Assembly (NCBI RefSeq): GCF_011516935.1
Contig: NZ_WOTF01000009.1
Location: 1-64,000 of the forward strand
Reading direction: 5' to 3'
Length of the DNA stretch: 64,000 nucleotides
From: Acetobacter farinalis
GTDB lineage: Bacteria > Pseudomonadota > Alphaproteobacteria > Acetobacterales > Acetobacteraceae
Positions 14,071 to 28,576 of the stretch are shown here, piece by piece. How positions within the stretch are numbered: position 1 is the first letter of the stretch; every line of letters starts with the position of its first letter. The position numbers and the translations under genes were made by a program. Under the pieces are notes generated by a model that saw nothing but the letters and a program-made list of their open reading frames with translations, had not been told where the DNA came from and did not search any database.

Positions 14071-15081
14071 TTACCGTGCAGGGCGCTCTGCTGGCGTGTG
14101 AAATGCGCCGTGGCGGTCAGACCAGCCGAGCGTTTTCAACGTGTCCAGCAGGGCGGGCGTCAGCCAACCTTCGGCCTGCATGCCCTCAAGCATCCACCCA
14201 AAGGAGGCCTCTGTGCTTTGGGATTCCGTATCAAATACCATGACATCCGGGGTGGAGGTTGTGCCCGGCAGCACGGCTTTCAGGGCGTCCGTGGGCAGAC
14301 CCAGCCCGCCATCCTGCATGGGGGCGCTGAGAAGCTCCGTGATAAAGGGGGCCTGTGCCGGTGTGTTGCAGAGTGCCACGGCCTCACGCAGTGCGGCATG
14401 CAGGCGGGCCTCGGCGTTCGGATTGTCTGCCTTCCATTGTTCTTTCAGGACAAGCATTTTTTCGAGGTGCCCCGGCATGGTCGAGGCGGAGCCGGCAACG
14501 GCAAAGGCCAGATTTTTCAGGGTGGCATCCGCCCCCCATGGAGGCCCGGCGCAGAACCCGTCAATTTCTCCGGCGGCAAGAGCCTCGATCATGCGGGCGG
14601 GGGGCATGATGACAATATCCGTTTCTGTGTCCCGGTTGAGGGCGTTCTTTGAAAGAAAGCGTGTCAGAATAAGATAATGTGTGGAATACAGGTGAACAAC
14701 ACCCAGCCGGGGCCTGCGGCCAAGGGCCTGCTGCCAGTTTTTAAAAGCCGTGTGCTTGTCAGGCTCCGCATCCCACAAAGCCTGTTCGGCCTTCTGCCCA
14801 CGCAGGACAAGCATGTTTCCGCCCCGGCTGAGGGGCAGGCCAGGCCGCAGGTCAAGTGCGCGGCCACGCTGGCCAAGTGCGGTCATGATGGCAAGGGGCG
14901 GAAACATCACGGCGCCATCAAACCCGTTCCAGACCAGCCCATCGGCAATATTGGCCCATGAGGGCACAACCACAGGTGCAATCTCCAGCCCGTGCCGGGA
15001 GAAAATATTCAGCACACAGGCTACAAGCACTGGTGCACTGTCAGCCAGCTGGAGCAGGCCAATACGGCAGGATGTGCTCAT
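14071..15081 (-). CDS. nasS: NasS, nitrate/nitrite sensor (NrtA/CmpA-like binding protein)
   Basis: A 336-residue member of the nitrate/bicarbonate-binding NrtA/CmpA family. It has no signal peptide, which fits a cytoplasmic sensor and not a transport subunit. It starts inside the nasT stop codon (4-nt overlap). In characterised systems, NasS holds the antiterminator NasT inactive until nitrate or nitrite binds NasS. It is the last gene of the operon it is expected to regulate. Confidence 0.85.
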   Translation of the reverse strand: MSTSCRIGLLQLADSAPVLVACVLNIFSRHGLEIAPVVVPSWANIADGLVWNGFDGAVMFPPLAIMTALGQRGRALDLRPGLPLSRGGNMLVLRGQKAEQALWDAEPDKHTAFKNWQQALGRRPRLGVVHLYSTHYLILTRFLSKNALNRDTETDIVIMPPARMIEALAAGEIDGFCAGPPWGADATLKNLAFAVAGSASTMPGHLEKMLVLKEQWKADNPNAEARLHAALREAVALCNTPAQAPFITELLSAPMQDGGLGLPTDALKAVLPGTTSTPDVMVFDTESQSTEASFGWMLEGMQAEGWLTPALLDTLKTLGWSDRHGAFHTPAERPAR

Positions 15082-15659
15082 GCTTTGGGGGTCCTGGTAT
15101 GGTGGGCGAGATACTCTGTGGCAACATCAATAATTTTTCGTGAAGTCTGCATGGCCTGTTTGCGCAACCAGCGGTAGGCATCCTCTTCCCTGCACCGCTC
15201 CTGCTTCATGAACAGGAATTTGGCGCGATCTATGGTTTCACGGTCGGAGAGCGTTTTTCGGGCCGCCAGAAGCTCCGCGTTTGTTTTGCGGAAACGGTCA
15301 TACAACGCAATGGCGGAGCGCAAAAGCGGCTTGACGTTTTTTACCGGTGTATCGAGCACGTTGTAAGAGCAGACCCCTGCGGCAAACGCGTCTTCCATCA
15401 GGGCTTCATCATCTTCATCAACAAACAGGGCCACAGGCCGCTCTAGACCGGAGGCAGAGAGTGCGCGCACGCTGTCCAGTGCATCGCGGTCTGCGCGGCT
15501 GATATCAACCAGAACAATATCGGGCGCGTGGGAGCGTACGGCGTCCATCAGGCTGGTGTGGGCCTCCAGCAGGATAACCTCCAGAGAGGTATCCGCCTCC
15601 AGCAGGCGCGCCAGGGCTCCGGCGCGCTGGGAGTTCTCATCTGCCAGAAGGACTTTCAT
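15078..15659 (-). CDS. nasT: NasT, ANTAR-domain antiterminator
   Basis: A 193-residue protein. The N-terminal receiver-like domain starts MKVLLADENSQRAGALARLL and retains DIVLVDIS. The C-terminal three-helix ANTAR domain includes LLAARKTLSDRETIDRAKFL and the conserved AYRWLRKQAM. ANTAR proteins bind paired hexaloop hairpins in leader RNA and block terminator formation. Such hairpins are present upstream of narK at 25483-25560. Cotranscribed and overlapping with nasS. Confidence 0.9.
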   Translation of the reverse strand: MKVLLADENSQRAGALARLLEADTSLEVILLEAHTSLMDAVRSHAPDIVLVDISRADRDALDSVRALSASGLERPVALFVDEDDEALMEDAFAAGVCSYNVLDTPVKNVKPLLRSAIALYDRFRKTNAELLAARKTLSDRETIDRAKFLFMKQERCREEDAYRWLRKQAMQTSRKIIDVATEYLAHHTRTPKA

Positions 15660-15676: not shown

Positions 15677-18600
15677 TCAGTACACATCGCGCAGATAGCG
15701 GCCACCGCGGGCAAGATCTGCCAGAAAGGCGTCAGCCTGTTCAAAGCTCACCTTTCCGTGATGTGCGATAATCCTTTTCAGGGCGCTGTCAACATCCCGC
15801 GCCATGCGGGCGGCATCACCACAGATATACAGGTACGCGCCCCGGTTCAGCCAGTCCCATAGCCGGGCACCCTGTTCCTCCATGCGGTCCTGCACATAAA
15901 TGCGCTCGGGCTGATCCCGCGAGAAGGCTGTATCCAGCCGGGTCAGGTAGCCTTGGGCCAGAAAAGCTTCCAGTTCCTTGCGGTAGTAAAAGCCGGTGCT
16001 TTCATGCCGCTCTCCAAAAAACAGCCAGGTGGGGCCGGTGGACTGCCGTGCGGCGCGTTCCTGCAGAAAGGCGCGGAAGGGTGCAATACCAGTGCCCGGC
16101 CCAATCATGATGACAGGCCGTGTCTCATCCGCAGGCAGGCGGAAGTGCGTTGTGGGTTGCCCGAACACCGGCACCTCCTCCCCCGGGGTGAGCCCCGTAA
16201 GCCATGTGGAGGAAACACCGGGGAATGGTGTGCGGTTGACGCCAACAGTCAGATGCACCTGCCCCGGTGCGGCAAGGGGGGAGGAGGAAATGGAATACAG
16301 GCGGGGCTGCATCGGGCGGAACAGGGCCGGGATTTCCTGCGGGGCCGGTGCCGTGGCCAGTGCGCCGAGAAGGTCCGGCAGATATCCGCCATCGGCCTGG
16401 CCCAGCCGCTCCAGCAGGGCGGGGGTGGGGCGGGAGAGGTCAAACCAGCGGCGCAGCGCCTCGCCAAGCGGGACGGCCCCCTGCCGCCGCAAGGTCAGCA
16501 TCGTGTGTTCTGGAAGCTGAAGGGCTTTCAGAACCTGCTGCACCACAGGTTCACTGTTGCGCGGCCAGATGCCCAGCGCATCTCCTGCTGTATAGCGTAG
16601 GGATGTTCCGGAAATATCCAGAACAATATGGCATGTTTCCTTTTCCGGGTCTTCCCCCGTCAGGCGGGTCACGCTGGTTATGCGTGCCAGAGCGGGGGTG
16701 GTGCGGGTAATGCCGGGGGCCAGAGCCGGGGCATGCAGGGCGGGGCCGGTTTCAGAGGGCGCAGGGCCACCCAGCGCGGCGAGCAGGCGGGGCTGCCAGG
16801 CTTCTACAGCCTCTTCATAATCCGGTTCACACTCCACACGCGGGAGCAGGGGGGAGGCACCCAGCGCGCCCAGTCGTGCGTCCAGCGCACGGCCAAACCC
16901 GCAGAAGCTGGCGTAAGACGAATCTCCAAGCGCAAGAACAGCGTAATGCAGGGGCGGAAGGGCGAGGTCCTGCCGCCGCACGGCATCCCAGAAGGGGGCG
17001 GCGTTGTCTGGTGGGTCTCCATCCCCGAAAGTGGAAACAAGGAACAGGGCTGTGCCGGAAAGGGCGGCCGGGTCACACTGGTCCAGCCCCGCCAGACGGA
17101 CGTCATGCCCGTTTTCACGCAGCCAGATGGCAAGCTGTGCGGCCAGCGCTTCCGTGCGGCCGGTCTGGGAGGCCCACCAGAGGGTCAGGGCCGGAGCGGA
17201 GGACCCCGCCACGAGGTCGGGTGCCAGCGGGGTGGCCAGTGCCGCGGCGGGCGCGCGTGCGTAAAGCCCCGCCAGCACGCCGTTCAGGTGCGTTGCCTGT
17301 TCAGCTGAAAGGGGTGCGGAAGCCGGGATAACCGGCAGGGTGCCTTCTGGCGGGGCCATGCGCAGCCCTTCCAGAAAACCGCTCACCCAGTGCGCGCTTT
17401 CCCCGGAAAACAGGGGTGCCTTGTGGTCTGCAAGGCCCAGATGGCGGGCAAGGCGGTCCGTGGGCATGGTTTTGGTTCTCTCCTGCACGGCCGGGGGAGC
17501 CGTGCGGGCGCGGGTGAGGGAGACAGCGCAGTGTTTGATGCCGGGCTGCAGGGAGAGGGGGTCGATCGCATCCGGTGTCAGCGCGTTGAGGCACAACTGC
17601 GCGCCAAACCGGTCATTCCAGTGGAAGGGGGCGAAGCAGGTGCCGGGGGCAATGCGTGTGGAGAGACGGGCGGGCACGGTTGCGCTGCCTCGGCTGGAGC
17701 GGATTTCAACCGGGTCTCCCTCAGCCAGCCCCAGATGCCGGGCATCTTCGGGGGCAAGTTCCACAAACGGACCGGGGTTAAGCGTGTTGAGCTGCGCCAC
17801 CCGGCCCGTTTTGGTCAGGGTGTGCCACTGGTGTTGCAGGCGGCCGGTGTTGAGCAGAAACGGATAGGTTTCATCCGGCTCCTCGGCGCGCGGCATCCAT
17901 GGGCGCGGGAAAAACACGGCCTTGCCATCGGGGGTTGCAAAAACAGGGGGGGCGTTCGGGTCCGGGCGGTAGCGGATGGGGTGGCGGGTGGCGGTATCAT
18001 GCTCAGAGATGGGCCATTGCATCGGGCCTTCCCGCAGGCGGGCGTGGCTTGCGCCGGAAATATCATACCCTGTCTGCGGGTTTGCAAAACGGCTGGCCTC
18101 GGCAAAAACCTCAGAGGCGGAGCTGTGGGAAAAACCGTCCTCAAACCCCATGGCGCAGGCAACGCGGGCAATAATCTGCCAGTCCGGCAGGGCTTCCCCG
18201 GGAGGAGGAACGGCCTGCGGGGCGAGGGTCATGGTCCGCTCCGAGTTCACCTGCACGCCATCGGCCTCGGCCCACAGGGCGGCGGGCAGAAGGATATCGG
18301 CATAGTGGCCGGTTTCTGTATCCGTATAGGCATCCTGCACGATCACAAGCTCGGCTTTTTCAAGGGCGGCAATCACGGTGTCGCGCCGGGGCACGGTGGC
18401 AACAGGGTTGGTGCAGATAATCCAGCAGGCCTTGATCTGCCCTGCGGCCATCTCCTCGAACATAGCAATCGCGCCCGCGCTGCCGGCGTCCCGCAGGGTG
18501 CCGGGAGAGAGGTTCCACAGGGCTTCGCAAAAAGCCCTGTCCTGTGCGGCAAGAGCTGTGCGCTGGCCGGGCAGGCCGGGTCCCATGTAGCCCATCTCCC

Positions 18601-19618
18601 GCCCACCCATAGCGTTGGGCTGGCCGGTGAGCGAAAACGGCCCCGCCCCAGGCTTGCAGATGGCTCCTGTGGCCAGATGCAGGTTGCACAGCGCATTGGT
18701 GTGCCACGCCCCGGAAATGCTTTGGTTGAGCCCCATGGTCCACAGAGACATCCAGTCTCCTGCTTCGGCAATCCAGCGGGCGGCTGTACGGAGGTCATCC
18801 TCCGCAAGGCCTGTCAGGCGTGCCACGCGTTCTGGCGTGTACTCTGCCAGAAAGGCGGGCATCTCCTGCCATCCTGTGGTGCAGGCAGCAATGAAGGGCG
18901 TATCAATTGCTCCGAGTTCTGTCAGCAGCCAGAGCAGACCGTTGAGTAAAGCGAGGTCCGTACCGGGGCGGATTTGCAAAAACAGGTCCGCTTTTTCAGC
19001 TGTGGCGGTGCGGCGTGGGTCCACCACAATCAGTTTTGCACCTGCGCGCTTGCGGTCCAGCAGGCGCAGGAACAGAATGGGATGACAATCCGCCATATTC
19101 GCCCCGATGACGAAAAACAGATTGGTACAGTCAAAATCTTCGTAGGAGCCAGGCGGGGCATCCGCTCCCAGTGAGAGCTTGTACCCCATGCCCGCCGCCG
19201 CCATGCACAGGCGGGAGTTGGATTCGATATGTCGTGTGCGGAGATAGCCTTTCACAAGTTTGTTGGCGAGGTACTGGGCCTCCAGAGACATCTGGCCGGA
19301 GACATACAAAGCAATGGCATCCGGCCCGTATGTTTCCAGAATAGCCCGCAGGCGCTTGGCGGTTTCCTGAATTGCCGCGTCTGCGGAGGCCGGAGCGAGG
19401 GGGGCTGCACGCTCTGGCCGGAGCAGGGCTGTTTCCAGCCGGGCGGAAGAGGTTACAGGGTTATCGCAGGAGCTGCCTTTGGTACAGAGCCGCCCCTTGT
19501 TGGCCGGGTGTGCGGCATCACCCCGCACCCGGACAATTTTCCGGTTTTCCACCTCAAGCACAATGCCGCAGCCCACACCGCAATAAGGGCAGACCGAGCG
19601 GATGTTCTCACACGTCAT
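15677..19618 (-). CDS. nasA: Assimilatory nitrate reductase fused to CysJ-like diflavin reductase
   Basis: A 1313-residue fusion. Residues 1-50 bind a [4Fe-4S] cluster (Cys10, Cys13, Cys17, Cys45); the molybdopterin oxidoreductase and dinucleotide-binding domains run to about 700. A flavodoxin domain starts near 830 ([13 protein letters not shown]), then comes an FAD domain with RLYSISSSP and an NADPH-binding domain with [16 protein letters not shown]. The chain ends ...RDVY; the terminal aromatic is typical of CysJ-type reductases. The protein can thus take electrons from NADPH directly and reduce nitrate to nitrite in the cytoplasm, with no separate NasB or ferredoxin. It lies 5 bp after nirB and 17 bp before nasT. 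Confidence 0.93.
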
Positions 19619-19623
19619 GGGCG

Positions 19624-22521
19624 TTACGCCAGAACGGCCTCCGCCGGGGCAGTCATCGTGCGGGCACGAATTTCCACACGCCCCCCACGCAGCCGAGCCT
19701 GCCAGGCCCGGATGGAGTGTGCGGCATCTTCCAGACAGGTGCCATCTTCAAGGTTGAAGTGCTGTTTGTAGAGTGGAGAGGCCACCACCGGCTGCCCCTT
19801 GTGGTCTCCCATGAGGCCGCGCCCCAAAACATTGGCGTGGGAGAAAGGGTCATGATTATCCACGGCAAAAACGCGCCCGTTGCCTTGGCTTTCGTGCAGA
19901 TAGAACAGGGCAATCTGGGTATCCTCATACAGGGCGACCACGCCGGAACCCGGAACAAGGTCACTTTCCGCGCACAGGTCCGTCCAGTCCGCAGGGCCTG
20001 CATCCTGTTGGCGCTCTGGTTGGTTTTCCGCAGGCCTGATCTGGTCGCGCTCGGGCACTGTGCGGATATTGGGGTCAGGGCGGCTGTCATTGACAAAGGT
20101 GCGGAAGCGCTTGAGCTTTTCGCGGTCTGTCAGCGCGTCTTTCCATTCGCAGTGATAGGTGTCCACCACATGCTGCATCTGCTGTTCCAGTTCTGCGCAA
20201 ATGCCGAGGCTGTCATGGATGATAACATCCTTGAGGTAGTCCAGACCGCCTTCCAGATTTTCTCGCCAGACGGAGGTTCTCTGAAGTTTGTCAGCCGTTC
20301 TGATATAAAACATCAGGAAACGATCAATATATTTGACCAGTGTTTCCGAATCCAGATCTGTCGCGAAGAGTTCTGCATGCCTGGGGCGCATGCCGCCATT
20401 GCCGCAGACATACAGGTTCCAGCCGTTTTCAGTGGCAATAATTCCCACATCCTTGCTCTGGGCTTCCGCGCATTCCCGCGTGCAGCCGGACACGGCGAAT
20501 TTCAGCTTGTGGGGCGAACGCAGGCCCTTGTACCGGTTTTCAAGGTCCAGCGCTTTGCCCACACTATCCTGCACACCATAGCGGCACCATGTGCTGCCCA
20601 CGCAGGATTTAACGGTGCGGGTTGATTTACCATATGCGTGGCCGGTTTCAAACCCGGCATCGAGCAGTTCTGTCCAGATTTCAGGGAGCTGGTGCAGTTG
20701 CGCGCCAAACAGGTCCACACGCTGGCCACCGGTAATCTTGGTATAAAGATTATATTTTTTGGCAACCTGCCCCAGAACAATCAGCCTGTCCGGCGTGATT
20801 TCTCCCCCGGCAATGCGTGGCACAACGGAATAGGTGCCGTTTTTCTGCATGTTGCCCATGAACGTGTCGTTCGTATCCTGAAGGGGGATATAGAGCGGGT
20901 CCGTAATGGGTTTGTTCCATGCCGAGGCCAGAATGGAGCCCACGGCAGGCTTGCAGAGCGTGCAACCAAGGCCACCATTGCCAAACTGTGTCATAAGCTC
21001 TTCAAAACTGTGAAGGCCATGCACGCGCACCAGAGAATACAGCTCCTGCCGGGTGTAGGAGAAATGTTCGCACAGGCTGCGGTCAACCGTAATGCCGCGC
21101 GCGGTCAGCTCGGCTTCAAAAACGCTTTTCAGCAGGGCGGAACATCCGCCGCAACCTGTACTGGCCTTTGTGTCTTTCTTCAGCGTGGCGAGGTCTGTGC
21201 ATCCGTGTTCGATAGCCGCACTGATGGACCCTTTGGTCACGTTATGGCACGAGCAGATGGTAGCACTTTCCGGCAGGGCGTCCGCCCCCAGAAGCTCCAC
21301 CCCTTCTCCGCGCGGCAGGATGAGCGCTGCCGGGTCCGCCGGGGGCGTGATGCCATTTTGCACATATTGAAAAATAGTGTCGTAATAAGAATTATCACCA
21401 ACCAGAACAGCGCCGGTAATGCGGGTTCCATCTGCTGAAAGCACAAGACGGCGATAAGATCCATCGGCTTCACCAATAAACCGGTAGCTGGTGGAACCCG
21501 GCTCCCGCCCCTGCGCATCGCCTATGGAGCCGACATCCACCCCTTGCAGCTTCAGTTTTGTGGACATATCCGCGCCGGTAAAGGCCGCCTCGGTCTCACC
21601 CGCCAGCAGGGCGGCCACCGTGCGGGCCATGCTGTAACCGGGGGCGACAAGACCAAAAACCTGCCCTTCCCACAACGCACATTCCCCAACAGCAAAAATA
21701 TCGCGCTCCGAAGTGCGGCACTGGTTATCCACCACAATGCCGCCGCGCGGGCCGATTTCCAGCCCGCAGGCGCGGCCCAGATTGTCCTGCGGCTGAATCC
21801 CTGCGGAGAAGACCACCATATCCGTATCCAGCGTGGTGCCATCAGCAAAAACCAGCTTATGCCGGTGTGTGGTGCCGGGTACAATCTCCTGTGTCTGGTG
21901 CAGCACGCGCACATCAATGCCCAGCGCTTCAATGCGGCGTTTCAGGGCGCGGCCCCCCTCTTCATCGAGCTGGGCGGGCATCAGGTGTGTGCCAATCTGG
22001 ATCACGCTGACATCCAGCCCGAGCACTTTCAGCGCATTGGCGGCTTCCAGCCCCAGAAGGCCGCCGCCAATCACGGTACCATGCCGTGCGCCCTCTGCCG
22101 CCGCGCGGATCAGGTCCAGATCTTCCAGTGTGCGGTATACCAGCCCGGCCGTGCCGGTATTGCCCGGCACCGGCGGCACGAAGGGGAGGGAGCCGGTTGC
22201 GAGAATCAGCGTGCTGTAGGGAAGAATTCCGTTTTCTGTCGTTACGGTTTTTGCCACCTTGTCAATCTGTGTGATGCGGGTGTTCAGGTGCAGCGTGATA
22301 CCGTGGGCTGTGTGAAAATCTTCCTGATGCAGCCGCAGGGCCAGTGCATCCTGCCCCACCATGTAATCAGTCAGATGAACACGGTCATAAGCATGGTGGC
22401 GTTCTTCACCAAAAACGTGAATCTGGTGCGTTTCATGCAGGCCATGCATGATGAGCTGTTCAGCACAGTAATGGCCAACCATGCCGTTGCCGACAATGAG
22501 GATGTTGTCTTTAGTGGTCAT
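19624..22521 (-). CDS. nirB: Nitrite reductase NirB with fused NirD domain
   Basis: A 965-residue protein. The N-terminal FAD/NAD(P)H oxidoreductase (about 1-400, dinucleotide fold [11 protein letters not shown]) is followed by a BFD-like [2Fe-2S] domain (CSCHNVT...GCGGC). The ferredoxin-like and siroheme/[4Fe-4S] domains follow ([11 protein letters not shown] and GCTRECAE). The last 120 or so residues are a NirD-type Rieske fold ([14 protein letters not shown]) that lacks Rieske Cys/His ligands, as NirD normally does. In most bacteria NirD is a separate protein; here it is part of NirB. It reduces nitrite to ammonium in the cytoplasm. The gap to the porin gene is 17 bp. Confidence 0.93.
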
Positions 22522-22538: not shown

Positions 22539-24242
22539 TTAAAATTTGAATTCGAGGGTTTGCATGTAAAGAGCCCCCTCTCTTGCGCCGACATCCCTCA
22601 TCCCGCGTGAGAGGAGAATACCTTCAATATCATGGGTCCAGGCCCAGTGCGGGGCAAAGTTCCATGACAGTTGGGTGTAGGGCATGGCCCCCGTAAACCC
22701 GCCATGCAGGCTGTTCCGCCATGTGTAGATCTTGCCATTGCCGCCATAGAGGGCGTCCTGCGTGCTGGCCCGCCAGAAGAAGGGGGCGTGCAGCTTTAAG
22801 TGCAGGGTGGGGCGCAGGGTGAAGCTGGCAACAGGCCCAATGCCAATCAGGTTTTGTGAGGTGAGGGAAAGAGAGAGGTCATTATAATATGGCAGCGGGA
22901 CAAACGGTGTTGCAAATGTCCCTACAGCCCCGTCCTGACTGCGGGCAGACCCGCCGGAGAACAGGTCCGCCTGCACACCAAACCCCGGTTTGCCCGCCCA
23001 GTCCGCCCGCGTGTAGGTAATGGTGCCGTTAAGCGCATAGGCGCGCACGGCGCGGGTGTTCTGGTCTGGTTTGGCGGGGCGGAATTCACCGCCCTGAAAA
23101 ATGCCGGTCAGATTGGTGCTGAAGGGGCCGATATTGCCCCACAGCCGCAGGCCGATATTATCCCTGCGGGAAGAGCCTTTCTGCACAGCGCCGGGTGCGG
23201 CTGCCGGGATGGAGGCCGCCGCACCGCCGTACAGGTAGCCGAGAAAAAAAACATCCGCGAACATCTGGCTTTTCTGGCCCATGAACCGGAAGGAGGGCAG
23301 GGCGGTGGAGGTATAGGCGCCATACAGGCGGGTGTTGTAGCTTGTGCCGTCTGCAAAAACCTTTTGTGGCAGCTTGTTGGTTTGCATGAAATCAAACAGG
23401 TCGATGCGGAACCGGTTCCACACGGCATAACCACGGAAGCCATCCCATGTCTGCTGGACGTTTGTCAGATCACGCGGGGACTGCATGGAGCCGGGTGCAT
23501 CCAGAAACACTTGCCGCCCGCCGATAACGCCCATTTGTGCGCCCAGAGCATGCCCTTTGAATTCCAGAATTCCCTGCTGGAGGTCCAGACTTTCGCGTTG
23601 CGCACCGGTCTGGTAGCCATATGTGTTGGCGCCACCCGCCACGCCATACAGGAATTCCGCATAGGCGCGGACATGCTCGCCCAGATGCAGGTCCGCCCCA
23701 TACTGGTTGCGCAGCAGTACACGGCTGGCATTGGTTTTACCAGCCTGCCCCAGCAGGGGTTGGTTTTCAAAAATGTAGCGCAGCCGTTCCTCACCGCTGA
23801 AGCTCATCCAGATGCTGCCGCTGTCATTCAGTCGCACATATTTCAGGCGGTTGAACCAGTCATTCTTCCGGGTGGTTTGCGAGGCGCGGGCCAGAGCGCT
23901 CCAGTCTTCCGCCCAGCGGGCCTGACCATAGCCATTCACCACGCCAAAGCCGGAAGCGGCAGCGTTCCCGGCGTTGAACATTTTCCAGTCCGGGTGATAC
24001 AGGGCACCTTTGACAAGAGCCGCGCTGTTCGGCAGCGGCAGGACAGGAGCGGGGGCCGCCGGAGCAAGCGGCGTTGCGGCTGCGGGTACTGGCCGGGGCG
24101 AGGCAGAGGGTTTCTGCGCATCGGCCCGGGCTGTGCCGCCCAGGGCTATTCCCGAAAGCAGGGCAGCCCCGGGAAACAGCACAAAACCCATGGCAAGGCT
24201 GCCGCTTTTCCAGTGGCGGATGGGGCGGGCTATCTGCGTCAT
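22539..24242 (-). CDS. Outer-membrane porin, alginate-export (AlgE-like) family
   Basis: A 567-residue protein starting at MTQIARP, where ATG overlaps the narK stop (ATGA). A signal peptide is followed by a Pro/Ala-rich linker and a long beta-barrel-like body with alternating aromatic residues, ending in the canonical LEFKF with a terminal Phe for barrel assembly. It resembles the alginate-export/porin group. Position between narK and nirB indicates an outer-membrane route for nitrate or nitrite, not for a polysaccharide. A frame extending to 24677 overlaps narK and is not used. Confidence 0.8.
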   Translation of the reverse strand: MTQIARPIRHWKSGSLAMGFVLFPGAALLSGIALGGTARADAQKPSASPRPVPAAATPLAPAAPAPVLPLPNSAALVKGALYHPDWKMFNAGNAAASGFGVVNGYGQARWAEDWSALARASQTTRKNDWFNRLKYVRLNDSGSIWMSFSGEERLRYIFENQPLLGQAGKTNASRVLLRNQYGADLHLGEHVRAYAEFLYGVAGGANTYGYQTGAQRESLDLQQGILEFKGHALGAQMGVIGGRQVFLDAPGSMQSPRDLTNVQQTWDGFRGYAVWNRFRIDLFDFMQTNKLPQKVFADGTSYNTRLYGAYTSTALPSFRFMGQKSQMFADVFFLGYLYGGAAASIPAAAPGAVQKGSSRRDNIGLRLWGNIGPFSTNLTGIFQGGEFRPAKPDQNTRAVRAYALNGTITYTRADWAGKPGFGVQADLFSGGSARSQDGAVGTFATPFVPLPYYNDLSLSLTSQNLIGIGPVASFTLRPTLHLKLHAPFFWRASTQDALYGGNGKIYTWRNSLHGGFTGAMPYTQLSWNFAPHWAWTHDIEGILLSRGMRDVGAREGALYMQTLEFKF

Positions 24243-25423
24243 CGGGAGCCCCCCGTCCATTTGCGGTGGCAGAGCGTGACACACCCGCATGCGAGAAGGC
24301 AGACAAGGGCAAACACAAGAAAGCCGGGGCCGTAGGAGCCTGTTGTCTGGCGTGCCGCGCCAAGGGAGGAGGCAAGATAGAACCCGCCCACTCCCCCCGC
24401 CATGCCGACAAGGCCGGTGAGAATACCCACCTGCTGCGGAAAGCGGATAGGCACGAGCTGGAACACGGCCCCGTTGCCAAGCCCAAGGGCCAGCATGCCC
24501 AGAAAAAACGCCCCGAACGCCAGATAGACAGAGGGCAGACCTGTGGCGATCAGCAGAAAAATGGCCCCTGCCGCACCATAAAGCAGGATCAGTGCTTTCG
24601 TGCCGCCCACACGGTCCGCCAGTGCCCCGCCAACAGGGCGGATAAAGGAGCCTGCAAACACCACAAATGCCGTGCATGCCCCGGCAACGGCGGGGGGCAG
24701 GTGGTACTGGTCATTAAAATAGATGGTCAGGAACGAGGCCAGCCCGACAAATCCGCCAAAGGTCACGCTGTAGAAAAACATCAGTGCCCAGCAGCCGCCG
24801 GATTTCAGGATCGGCCCCCAGGAGGAGAGCGTGGGGGCCGCAGGCCGCGTTTCAGGTTCACGCGCCAGATACAGGAAGGCCCCCAGAACGGCCATCAGCG
24901 GCAGCGTGACAAGACCGAGAACATTCAGCCAGCCCACCATGGCGGCCAGACCGGGTGCGAAGAGAGAGGCCAGCGCGGTGCCGGAATTGCCCGCTCCGGC
25001 AATGCCCAGCGCTGTGCCCTGATAGCGCGGCGGGTACCATACGGAAGCCAGCGGCAGTGCTACGGCGAAGGAAGCCCCGGCAACCCCCAGCACCAGCGCA
25101 ACCCAGAATAGGCTGGCATAGCTGTGGGGGGCGAGAAACCATGTCAGCCACAGGCCGAGAATAACGGTAATCTGCGCGGCAATGGCCACGCGGCGGGGGC
25201 CGAACAGATCAACCAACGCTCCAGCCAGCACACGCAGGCCCGCGCCCGCCAGCACAGGTGTCGCAACAAGCAGGCCTTTCTGGCCAGCGTTCAGGTGCAG
25301 GTCATGCGCAATGGCAATCCCCAGCGGGCCGAGCAGCACCCAGACCATGAAGGAGACATCAAAATACAGAAAAGCGGCGACAAGTGTCGGTGTATGACCG
25401 GCTTTCAGAAATCCTTTGTCCAC
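24239..25423 (-). CDS. narK: NarK-type nitrate/nitrite transporter (MFS)
   Basis: A major facilitator protein of about 394 residues and 12 membrane segments. Family features include FLYFDVSFMVWVLLGPL in helix 1, the GNSG and GAGLRVLAGALVDLFGPRR segments, and the second nitrate signature around GLGNGAVFQLVP. GTG 25423 is chosen because GGAAG lies 7 nt upstream and gives a standard N-terminus (MDKGFLKAGH). ATG 25450 would add 9 residues. It is the first gene of the nitrate operon and brings nitrate into the cytoplasm for the NasA fusion. The leader preceding it carries the antitermination signals. Confidence 0.92.
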   Translation of the reverse strand: MDKGFLKAGHTPTLVAAFLYFDVSFMVWVLLGPLGIAIAHDLHLNAGQKGLLVATPVLAGAGLRVLAGALVDLFGPRRVAIAAQITVILGLWLTWFLAPHSYASLFWVALVLGVAGASFAVALPLASVWYPPRYQGTALGIAGAGNSGTALASLFAPGLAAMVGWLNVLGLVTLPLMAVLGAFLYLAREPETRPAAPTLSSWGPILKSGGCWALMFFYSVTFGGFVGLASFLTIYFNDQYHLPPAVAGACTAFVVFAGSFIRPVGGALADRVGGTKALILLYGAAGAIFLLIATGLPSVYLAFGAFFLGMLALGLGNGAVFQLVPIRFPQQVGILTGLVGMAGGVGGFYLASSLGAARQTTGSYGPGFLVFALVCLLACGCVTLCHRKWTGGSR

Positions 25424-25482
25424 AGAACGTCTTCCGGATGGTTTGCGCATTCTGCGCGGAAAACCATCGCTCCTCTGAGCCA

Positions 25483-25502
25483 GCGAACCATCGTTGATCC
25501 GC
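25483..25502 (-). promoter_or_regulatory. ANTAR leader hairpin P2
   Basis: On the minus strand, GCGGATC pairs with GGTTCGC (7 bp with two G-U pairs) around the hexaloop AACGAT. A at loop position 1 and G at position 4 fit the ANTAR consensus. Its 3' arm overlaps TCGCT (25486-25482), which can instead pair with AGCGA (25471-25467) ahead of a GGTTTTCC tract. P2 and the possible terminator therefore exclude each other. Confidence 0.7.
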
Positions 25503-25540
25503 TCTGTGTGCCTTTTCTGCCCCGAAGGGCGGCTTGTCCG

Positions 25541-25560
25541 TTCCGCCACCGTTGACGGAA
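25541..25560 (-). promoter_or_regulatory. ANTAR leader hairpin P1
   Basis: On the minus strand, TTCCGTC pairs with GGCGGAA (7 bp, one G-U) around the hexaloop AACGGT. The loop has A1 and G4 as in NasT/NasR/AmiR targets and nearly the same sequence as P2. It begins about 10 nt after the predicted transcription start. Confidence 0.7.
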
Positions 25561-25577
25561 GGGCTGATGTGATAAAA

Positions 25578-25606
25578 ATAGTATGATCGGAATAATCCGA
25601 AGTCAA
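25578..25606 (-). promoter_or_regulatory. Sigma70-type promoter of the nitrate operon
   Basis: On the minus strand: -35 TTGACT (25606-25601), a 17-bp spacer, and -10 TACTAT (25583-25578). Transcription would begin near 25571, just before the P1 hairpin. The spacer holds the inverted repeat TCGGA-TTAT-TCCGA (25587-25600), a possible regulator site. Confidence 0.65.
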
Positions 25607-25657
25607 AATGATTTTTCGGGTTTCGGAAAGTTAAATTGGTTTTTAGAGGAAAGTTGT

Positions 25658-28303
25658 ATGCGTCGTCTTCTGGTTTTGAGCACCCTGCTTGCCGGGTTGC
25701 TTGTGGTGGTTCCGGCGCAGGCGGAACAGGTTTTTTCATTTCAGTCCGCTGCCGGGCAGCTCCCGAAAACGGTGGTGCCCGCATCCTATGCAATCAATAT
25801 TGTAACTGATATCGACCATCTGAAGCTTACGGGGCAGGAAACCATCCGGGTGGATGTGCGCACATCTGTGGCGGACATCACACTCAATCAGGCCGGCCTG
25901 CATCTGGCCAAGGCCGTGCTGGATAACGGCGTGGCGGCTGAGATCCGTCAGGATGATGCGGCGGAAACCGCCACGCTGCATTTTCCGGCAAAAGTCGGCA
26001 AGGGTGCGCATACGCTTGTTATCACTTGGTCCGGCCCGATCCTGAAGACGCCGAACGGCATTTATGTGGATGATTACACAGCACCCACAGGCGAGACAAA
26101 GCGGATGCTGGTCACGCAGTTTGAAGTGGCGGACGCCCGCCGCATGTTCCCCGGCTGGGATGAACCCGCGTTCAAGGCGACTTTCCAGCTTGATGTCACG
26201 CTTCCGAAAGAGGTTGTGGCTGTCAGCAACATGCCGGTGACGCAGACCCAACCTGACGCAGGTGAGCCGGGGCACGAGATGAAGCGCGTGTCCTTTGGCA
26301 CAACGCCGCGGATGTCCACCTATCTTCTGGCGCTGGTTGCGGGGGATATGAAATCCGTGCAGGGGCAGGCGGATGGCACGCCTCTGGCTGTATATGCTCC
26401 CTCCGGCCTCGAAAATCAGGGTGACTTTGCCCTGCATGCCGCAGAGCAGATCCTTCCTTATTACAACAGCTATTTTGGTGTGAAATACCCATTGCCCAAA
26501 ATGGATATGGTCGCAATTCCCGGAAACTATCAGGCCGGGGCCATGGAAAACTGGGGGCTGCTGACCTATATTGATAACGTCCTGCTGTTTGACCCCAAAA
26601 ACAGCACCCCCCGCACGCGTGAACTGATTTATGAAGTTGTTGCGCATGAAATGGCACATCAGTGGTCGGGTGATCTGGTGACCATGGGCTGGTGGGACAA
26701 TATCTGGCTGAATGAAGGCTTTGCCTCATGGATGGAAATCAAGGCAACCGACAAAATGAATCCGGAATGGGACATCTGGCCACGCCAGCATGAAACCCGT
26801 GAGGAAACCATGGCGACGGATGCGTTGCCCTCCACACACCCCATCCAGCAGACCATTCACAATGTCAGTGAGGCAAACTCGGCTTTTGACAATATCAGTT
26901 ATGGCAAGGGAGAGCTGGTAATCCGGATGCTGGAAGGTTGGCTGGGTGAGGATCATTTCCGTGATGGCATGCGCGCCTACATGAAAGCCCATGCCTACAG
27001 CAGCGCAACCAGTCAGGATCTGTGGCAGGCGCTGTCTCAGGCGTCAAATCTGGATGTTGGTTCTGTTGCACGCAGCTTTACTGAACAGCCCGGCATCCCG
27101 CTGGTGCATGTGGCGGCTGCCTGTGCATCTGGCAAGACCGTTTATACGCTGACTCAAAGCCGCTTTACCATTCATGACGCTCATCCTGCGCCGCAGGTCT
27201 GGCGTATTCCTGTTGTGGCGGGTGGACCGGGGATTGTCCCGCAAAAGCTTGTTCTGGGTAAGGCCCCGCAGAAACTCAGCGTGGCGGGGTGTGAGGCTCC
27301 TCTCAAGCTGAATCTGGGGGAAAGCGGATATTACCGCGTGCAGTATGATGCGCCGGCTTTTGCATCCCTGCTGAAAAACAGTGCCCGTTTTGCCCCTGTG
27401 GACAGAGCAAACCTGCTGGGGGACCAGTTTGCACTGTTCCGTTCCGGTCAGGCCCCGCTTTCTGCTTATATGGATCTGGCGGATGGCCTTCTGGCGGGTC
27501 AGGAGCGCGACATTGCTGTTCTTCAGGAAATTATCGGCAAGTTTGAAACGCTCGATGCGTATCTGAAGGGCAGCGCGGACCGGGAGGTGTTCCGGGCTTA
27601 TGCGCGCAGGCAGCTTGCACCTGTTCTGGCGCGTCTGGGCTGGGACCAGAAGGCGGATGAAGCCGTGCTGGACACCATGCTGCGTCCGATCGTTCTTTCT
27701 GCGCTGGGGATGTTTGAAGACCCGACCGTGGTAGCGGAAGCAAAAGTGCGTTTTGCGCGCTGGCAGGCTGACCCGGCTTCTCTGAAGCCTGATCTGGTCG
27801 GGGTGGTGGCTCGTATTGCCATGACGCACGCGGACCAGAAAACCTATGAACTCATGGCGGAAAAAGTGCGCACCACGCAGGCGACTGAAGTTAAACTCAG
27901 ACTGTTCAATGCGCTTGCTGCGGCAAGAGATCCGGCTCTGATTGAGAAAAACGTCCTGCTGGCTGCCAGCGGTGCTATTCCGAACGGGCGTATTGCCATG
28001 GCGCTGGGCCGCGTGGCGGATGAGAGTGAGAATGCTGATCTGGTCTGGAAGCTGGTTAAACAGCATGAGGCGGAAATCAGGACTCATCTGGCTCCGTGGT
28101 CTCAGGATGGGTTCCTGGCCGGAATCGCCGCGTATTCGGATACGCCGGAGGTTGCAAAGGCTCTGGAGGCAGACCCTTCTTCCTCCAAAACAACCGGTGC
28201 CAGAATTGCAACGGCAAAAGCCCTGAGTGAAATCGGTGCCCGGAAAGACGCTATGCAGGCAACTCGCTCACAACTGCATACATGGCTGGGTGCGCATCAC
28301 TGA
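25658..28303 (+). CDS. M1 family metallo-aminopeptidase, secreted
   Basis: An 881-residue zinc aminopeptidase. The signal peptide MRRLLVLSTLLAGLL ends near AQA. Substrate-binding GAMEN is at 294-298, zinc motif HEMAH at 330-334 with the third ligand Glu353 in NEGFASW, and the C-terminal helical ERAP1-like domain fills the rest. ATG 25658 has AGAGGA about 7 nt upstream and opens directly on the signal peptide; a longer frame to 25583 would bury it. It trims N-terminal residues from peptides in the periplasm. It is divergent from narK. Confidence 0.93.
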   Translation: MRRLLVLSTLLAGLLVVVPAQAEQVFSFQSAAGQLPKTVVPASYAINIVTDIDHLKLTGQETIRVDVRTSVADITLNQAGLHLAKAVLDNGVAAEIRQDDAAETATLHFPAKVGKGAHTLVITWSGPILKTPNGIYVDDYTAPTGETKRMLVTQFEVADARRMFPGWDEPAFKATFQLDVTLPKEVVAVSNMPVTQTQPDAGEPGHEMKRVSFGTTPRMSTYLLALVAGDMKSVQGQADGTPLAVYAPSGLENQGDFALHAAEQILPYYNSYFGVKYPLPKMDMVAIPGNYQAGAMENWGLLTYIDNVLLFDPKNSTPRTRELIYEVVAHEMAHQWSGDLVTMGWWDNIWLNEGFASWMEIKATDKMNPEWDIWPRQHETREETMATDALPSTHPIQQTIHNVSEANSAFDNISYGKGELVIRMLEGWLGEDHFRDGMRAYMKAHAYSSATSQDLWQALSQASNLDVGSVARSFTEQPGIPLVHVAAACASGKTVYTLTQSRFTIHDAHPAPQVWRIPVVAGGPGIVPQKLVLGKAPQKLSVAGCEAPLKLNLGESGYYRVQYDAPAFASLLKNSARFAPVDRANLLGDQFALFRSGQAPLSAYMDLADGLLAGQERDIAVLQEIIGKFETLDAYLKGSADREVFRAYARRQLAPVLARLGWDQKADEAVLDTMLRPIVLSALGMFEDPTVVAEAKVRFARWQADPASLKPDLVGVVARIAMTHADQKTYELMAEKVRTTQATEVKLRLFNALAAARDPALIEKNVLLAASGAIPNGRIAMALGRVADESENADLVWKLVKQHEAEIRTHLAPWSQDGFLAGIAAYSDTPEVAKALEADPSSSKTTGARIATAKALSEIGARKDAMQATRSQLHTWLGAHH

Positions 28304-28500: not shown

Positions 28501-28576
28501 TGGTATCCCGTACGGGATTCGAACCCGTGTTGCCGCCGTGAAAGGGCAGTGTCCTAGGCCTCTAGACGAACGGGAC
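28501..28576 (-). tRNA. tRNA-Glu (anticodon TTC)
   Basis: A 76-nt cloverleaf on the minus strand. The 5' acceptor arm GTCCCGT pairs with ACGGGAT (one G-U); the anticodon loop is C-T-TTC-A-C; the T-arm has GGTTCGAATCC; CCA is encoded. TTC reads GAA/GAG. Confidence 0.95.

Follow-up and report, generated by a model that had tools for sequence, protein, structure and literature searches.

The region upstream of narK in Acetobacter farinalis is, on the evidence of its sequence, very probably the NasT target leader of the Acetobacter nitrate-assimilation operon. It was analysed within a 64,000-nucleotide stretch of the genome, referred to here as the window. Alignments and predicted folds identify the leader as a real, conserved RNA of the NasT-type ANTAR class. 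Accounts of ANTAR regulators usually present them as antiterminators, with tight limits on hairpin spacing. What is new in the window leader is a long structured linker, the lack of a recognisable terminator, and two extra hairpins held at a fixed distance from the start codon. The overall best explanation, to which we assign a probability of roughly 0.5, is that this is a NasT-responsive ANTAR leader with its output at ribosome loading; that the output is exerted at translation initiation is itself about an even bet.

Architecture of the leader and its operon

The leader lies on the minus strand between narK and a divergent aminopeptidase N-like gene on the plus strand. Its promoter consists of a −35 hexamer TTGACT (25601..25606, minus strand) and a −10 hexamer TACTAT (25578..25583, minus strand) with a spacer of 17 nt. 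A promoter scan recovered the same promoter, plus two plus-strand matches, and a re-reading of the letters and coordinates agreed, so the TTGACT-N17-TACTAT promoter that the original prediction placed ahead of two hexaloop hairpins is present. The following features are all on the minus strand. P1 (25541..25560) is an ANTAR hairpin of 7 bp with the loop AACGGT and exhibits compensatory changes in two clades. The linker hairpin PL (25519..25530) is GCCC-UUCG-GGGC, and the second ANTAR hairpin, P2 (25482..25503), has 8 bp and the loop AACGAT. One base past P2 is P3 (25469..25480), GCUC-AGAG-GAGC, in which a UA pair is replaced by CG in 4 of 11 rows. It is followed by P4 (25437..25468), GAUGGUUU...AAACCAUC, whose 5′ arm includes a U-run that had been read as a terminator tail. 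A Shine-Dalgarno-like GGAAG, positioned by inference at 25431..25435, is immediately 3′ of P4, and the GTG start codon of narK (25421..25423) is 13 nt past P4; the same codon is GTG, ATG or TTG in relatives. The two loops with A1 and G4, and the 7 bp of P1, are as originally described, but P2 has 8 bp, not 7. Similarly, the linker does hold its own stem, GCCC-UUCG-GGGC at 25530-25519, but is 37 nt long and not 38.

We defined a dual motif as two A..G hexaloops on stems of at least 7 bp, with the loops 20-70 nt apart. It was found once in the 64 kb of the window, both strands included, where single hairpins of that kind number 13, and it occurred in 0/5000 dinucleotide shuffles of 25457-25606. 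In the leader, no Rfam family attained its gathering score, and by E-value there were chance-level matches only. The sole Rfam match at gathering score in the window is a tRNA gene (28504-28576, minus strand).

The first gene of the operon, narK (24239..25423, minus strand), encodes a nitrate/nitrite MFS transporter (TIGR00886, below the curated cut-off) with 89 to 90% identity to NarK of named Acetobacter species. The gene order is narK, porin-like, nirBD fusion, nitrate reductase-flavoprotein fusion, nasT, nasS. NirB and NirD form a single 965-aa protein (19624-22521, minus strand), and a 1313-aa protein (15677-19618, minus strand) is an assimilatory nitrate reductase fused to a CysJ-like diflavin reductase. 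By domain search, the final two genes encode an ANTAR response-regulator protein (nasT, 15078..15659, minus strand) and a nasS-like NMT1_2 sensor protein (14071..15081, minus strand) in the arrangement of NasT-NasS, which confirms the assertion that nasT and nasS close the operon; NCBIfam assigned neither a NasT nor a NasS name to them. The window leader has two of the marks of an ANTAR target: a pair of hairpins whose hexaloops carry A1 and G4, retained in relatives, and an ANTAR protein encoded in the genome, the one ANTAR domain found across it being that of NasT in the same operon. Because the nitrate operon behind the ANTAR leader ends in nasT-nasS, self-control of the operon through this pair is probable.

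The promoter region has features of its own. TTTTGAC and subsequent bases (roughly ATCG-ATTATTCCG, by eye) recur upstream of narK in relatives, and spacer bases are kept between window positions 25578-25608 (minus strand) and the narK promoters of the acetic-acid-bacterium loci L002-L034. This spacer conservation looks as if it marks an activator site. The window spacer also contains TCGGA-TTAT-TCCGA. In seven loci from relatives outside the family (L036, L049, L050, L053, L055, L056, L059), the motif TGGCAC-N5-TTGC is seen by eye upstream of narK, and we take it to be sigma-54-like; a search for sigma-54 gave no match in the genome of the window. Judged by this presumed consensus, the promoter type was exchanged between these relatives and the window and the ANTAR leader was retained.

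Conservation, covariation and co-occurrence with NasT

The narK loci examined are the best 80 of 229 relatives, and their predicted folds have a common plan of P1, PL, P2, P3, P4, ribosome site and start codon. Two clades were aligned separately, with the structure scored in each covariation test taken from one row of the alignment. In clade A, comprising 11 window-like leaders, the paired fraction of cells is 95.4% and both-sided changes are found at 10 pairs; 0/500 shuffles reach either value, and slid versions of the structure pair at 35 to 46%. Both-sided changes affect 3/8 pairs of P4 in this clade. The first pair of PL is GC, CG or AU, and 3 of the 11 rows are unpaired there as aligned. 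Clade B, represented by 9 leaders from Komagataeibacter and some Acetobacter aligned with plain MAFFT, has 93.8% of cells paired and 7 pairs with both-sided changes, a level attained by 5/500 shuffles. Its support comes from P1 and P4, with the independent clade B version of P4 showing both-sided changes at 3/6 pairs; P2 and P3 are without both-sided change, and one P2 pair is unpaired in 8/9 rows. A measure of further pair types did not rise above shuffles in either clade (174/500 for clade A, 200/500 for clade B). Across the aligned rows, A1 and G4 are invariant in both hexaloops and the remaining loop bases vary.

With an E-value cut-off of 0.01, a covariance model, R1, places the leader before narK in 35/37 acetic-acid-bacterium loci, and in 25/27 when its 10 training loci are removed; the loci missed at narK are L016 and L026. 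Outside the family, three loci (L131-L133) look like the start-proximal leader of the window. A second R1 match in the window's own genome (G000:C2:46296-46430, E 0.03) and 11 other matches in the family (E 0.001-0.03) are probably due to chance. A repeat of the P2 3′ arm within the P4 5′ arm, present in the window and L011, was discarded as a candidate feature, being absent from the other clades read by eye. Acetobacter cerevisiae LMG 1625 and Acetobacter lambici LMG 27439 each possess two narK loci, with leaders from different clades (L005/L028 and L006/L017, respectively).

Among 49 genomes of the genus, the element is present in 17 and NasT in 28: 15 genomes have both, 2 the element only, 13 NasT only, and 19 neither. 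NasT is found in 15/17 genomes with the element and in 13/32 without it (Fisher p = 0.002, with genomes treated as independent of descent). Some of the 13 NasT-only genomes probably carry divergent versions of the element, because R1 is narrow. In a 200-genome sample of the family, 7 genomes have strong R1 matches (E below 1e-7), and 6 of the 7 have NasT. In one genome, G174, the element (L118, G174:C12:66452-66587 and downstream) precedes a narK match split into two overlapping pieces; no NasT match is listed for G174 among the family sample, and the locus looks like decay. The leader might instead be a structured RNA to which NasT does not bind, such as a stability element. We regard this as highly improbable: the invariance of A1 and G4 amid otherwise variable loops, and the encoding of NasT in the same operon, outweigh what can be said for it, namely the 2/17 element genomes without a NasT match (G618 and G619, assemblies of 330 and 300 contigs) and the position of G174, 1 of the 7 strong family hits, outside the genomes with NasT matches.

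Output of the leader: terminator or ribosome site

In the original prediction, the 3′ arm of P2 shared bases with a possible terminator stem, TCGCT/AGCGA, so that formation of P2 would prevent termination. The letters are present on the minus strand (TCGCT 25486-25482, AGCGA 25471-25467, TTTT 25463-25460), but the stem is weak, at −4.8 kcal/mol with a 10-nt loop, and disfavoured relative to the P2 fold. When a transcript ending at UUUU was folded with the competing terminator as a constraint, the stem was 12.3 kcal/mol worse than the P2 fold, and P2 is therefore predicted to form even without NasT. A terminator scan of 25380-25700 detected no terminator-like site. The U-run is part of the P4 5′ arm and its partner bases co-vary: opposite UUU stands AAA in the window and GGG in A. 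malorum. Outside the clade of the window, the U-run is lost and P4 is retained. Across the 37 acetic-acid-bacterium loci, weak candidates emerged in three (L009, L010, L011; −7.7 to −9.6 kcal/mol) under a laxer scan and in none under a stricter one; real terminators, of −22.8 to −35.3 kcal/mol, are seen in the leaders ahead of narK in Gallionella, Paenibacillus and others. Classical antitermination, in which P2 excludes the UCGCU/AGCGA terminator, is for these reasons unlikely, even though the letters are kept in clade A and are followed by UUU or UUUU in 8/8 rows inspected.

The relation between hexaloop position and terminators was surveyed in 109 distinct narK leaders, 81 of which have a hexaloop hairpin by rule; the other 28 were dropped, and L137, whose start position was not located, was excluded. 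When no more than 85 nt separate the last hexaloop from the start codon, 53/54 leaders are without a terminator-like hairpin, and when the distance is greater, 11/27 have a terminator-like site (−11.9 to −35.3 kcal/mol). The counts are of non-independent rows, and P2 was missed in 10 acetic-acid-bacterium leaders whose stem has a mismatch. Leaders with terminator-like sites include those of Gallionella, Paenibacillus, a sphingomonad and others. Since terminators occur with distant hexaloops and nearly none with start-proximal ones, ANTAR hairpins accompany two kinds of output, and the window leader is of the start-proximal kind.

The end of P4 is 12-13 nt from the start codon in 20/20 leaders of both alignments, despite the variable length of the P4 loop. 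R1 detects a second element in seven Acetobacter loci that belong to a different clade, a sister group. It is located about 2 kb downstream, some 140-160 nt upstream of a nirB whose product has 72% identity to the NirB of the window over 127 residues. An ATG exactly 15 nt after the P4 of this second element opens a frame of 45-54 codons in 7/7 loci, and the frame terminates 2 nt short of the nirB ATG in 6 loci and overlaps the ATG in 1. It is open in all seven, with the reading frame preserved through length changes. The encoded peptide, MVQ...QIARSY, is found at L017:5647-5784 and at the same place in L016, L019, L024, L026, L029 and L034. Codon statistics gave no synonymous excess for the peptide across the 7 loci; the short frame could be a coupling frame or incidental, and the statistics fit both. 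A third instance of the element precedes an Alginate_exp porin gene in L116, with P4 18 nt before the ATG. Because copies are found at narK, at the short frame before nirB, and at the porin gene, the element block seems to move together with a start site of its own.

A conserved base-pairing switch that would hide the ribosome site unless P2 forms was sought, and no general one was found. The helix first suspected, between the P2 5′ flank and the start region, is unsupported as a general feature. A duplex matrix of the P2 flank against the start region displayed no specificity, and when P2 was forced to form, the start codon became easier to open by 0.22 kcal/mol on average, versus 0.31 kcal/mol with swapped tails, the own tail being better in 8/39. 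Nor did a permutation test over 21 groups (p = 0.34 and 0.11) indicate that P2 pairs with the ribosome site in a conserved way. Pairing of the P2 3′ arm with the ribosome site fell below the 10% point of shuffles in 9/28, a signal lost under the permutation control (p = 0.11). The clade of the window alone has a striking match of 9 bp between the P2 5′ side and the start codon region, CACAGAGCG with CGUUCUGUG. This match was the best of all groups in the permutation test and is without both-sided change, its bases hardly varying.

That NasT binds the leader, in which direction it exerts control and at what level it acts are inferred, the last of these from the position of the leader, the absent terminator and the short frame at nirB. 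When nitrate is absent, NasS would hold NasT; when nitrate is present, NasT would be freed and would bind the P1 and P2 hexaloops. P2 is predicted not to compete with an intrinsic terminator, and P3 and P4 appear to end directly at the ribosome-binding site, so that NasT binding would most likely raise ribosome loading at the site abutting P4. Failed translation of the first frame would then lower expression of the remaining operon. More tentatively, the terminator-less P1-PL-P2-P3-P4 array together with the ribosome site may be a portable translational on-switch of the Acetobacteraceae and some other alphaproteobacteria, moved as a block to narK, to the porin gene and, via a short coupling frame, to nirB.

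The main rival to ribosome loading is attenuation without a U-tract, in which P3/P4, or Rho acting there, halts RNA polymerase unless NasT is on P1/P2. The conservation of P3 and P4 fits it, as does the description of NasT elsewhere as an antiterminator, and a study of Gluconobacter oxydans describes a riboswitch leader with no evident terminator and a 100-fold drop in coverage (PMC5756330). Such attenuation has no need of the fixed spacing between P4 and the start codon or of the short frame at nirB, no U-run is retained past P3 or P4 across clades, and no conserved structure that excludes P2 was found; we consider it a serious possibility, albeit a doubtful one.

Relation to known ANTAR systems and significance

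NasT of Paracoccus denitrificans shifts the nasA leader RNA (PMC3795266), in which hairpins HI and HII are 137 bp and 91 bp upstream and termination hairpins have been proposed (PMC3795266, PMC5424462). Of these two leader hairpins only the first is described as important, mutation of HII having little effect (PMC5424462). The known cases of NasT action are described as transcription antitermination, and transcriptional fusions respond in P. denitrificans (PMC5424462). In Bradyrhizobium diazoefficiens, narK, for which hairpins are predicted, nonetheless goes up in a nasT mutant (PMC6759348). These observations count against the favoured reading of the window leader. The window shares with P. 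denitrificans nasA the NasT-NasS pair, the nitrate genes and the two leader hairpins; compared with the Paracoccus leader as described, its P2 is 72 nt from the start, it has two further conserved hairpins, and it has no terminator.

Like the targets of the EutV/NasR/AmiR antiterminators, the window leader has two A1/G4 hexaloop hairpins ahead of nitrogen genes. In the published accounts of those systems an intrinsic terminator with a U-tract shares sequence with P2, whereas P2 of the window leader has no such overlap. The linker of eut leaders is 5-12 nt, and in that system induction was impaired at 14 nt and an extension by 20 nt did away with antitermination in vitro (PMC3369931, PMC8934654); the window linker, at 37 nt with its own hairpin, is outside this range. 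It is nonetheless compatible with ANTAR membership, because the published motif definition permits a variable linker, and translation control was proposed in the same paper for hits without terminators (PMC3369931). Actinobacterial ANTAR RNAs, as reported, frequently extend into the ribosome site or the start codon, are mostly without terminators, and repress translation when bound (PMC8164766). The window leader is likewise start-proximal and without a terminator, but its P2 ends 58 nt upstream of the narK start, two hairpins intervene, and activation would be expected; P2, arms included, stays clear of both the ribosome site and the start codon, and it is P4 that abuts the ribosome site. A search of mostly non-subscription literature turned up no publication on NasT leaders of acetic acid bacteria.

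This leader family has retained the NasT hairpins; its linker is roughly threefold longer, a terminator is not detectable, and P3 and P4 are locked to the start codon. Searches based on terminators would overlook such targets. If ribosome loading is the output, an identical receptor and RNA motif would have been wired to a different output, and if the array is indeed a portable on-switch, it would represent an ANTAR system that activates translation. In the acetic acid bacteria, which are non-pathogenic, the leader provides a compact, testable system.
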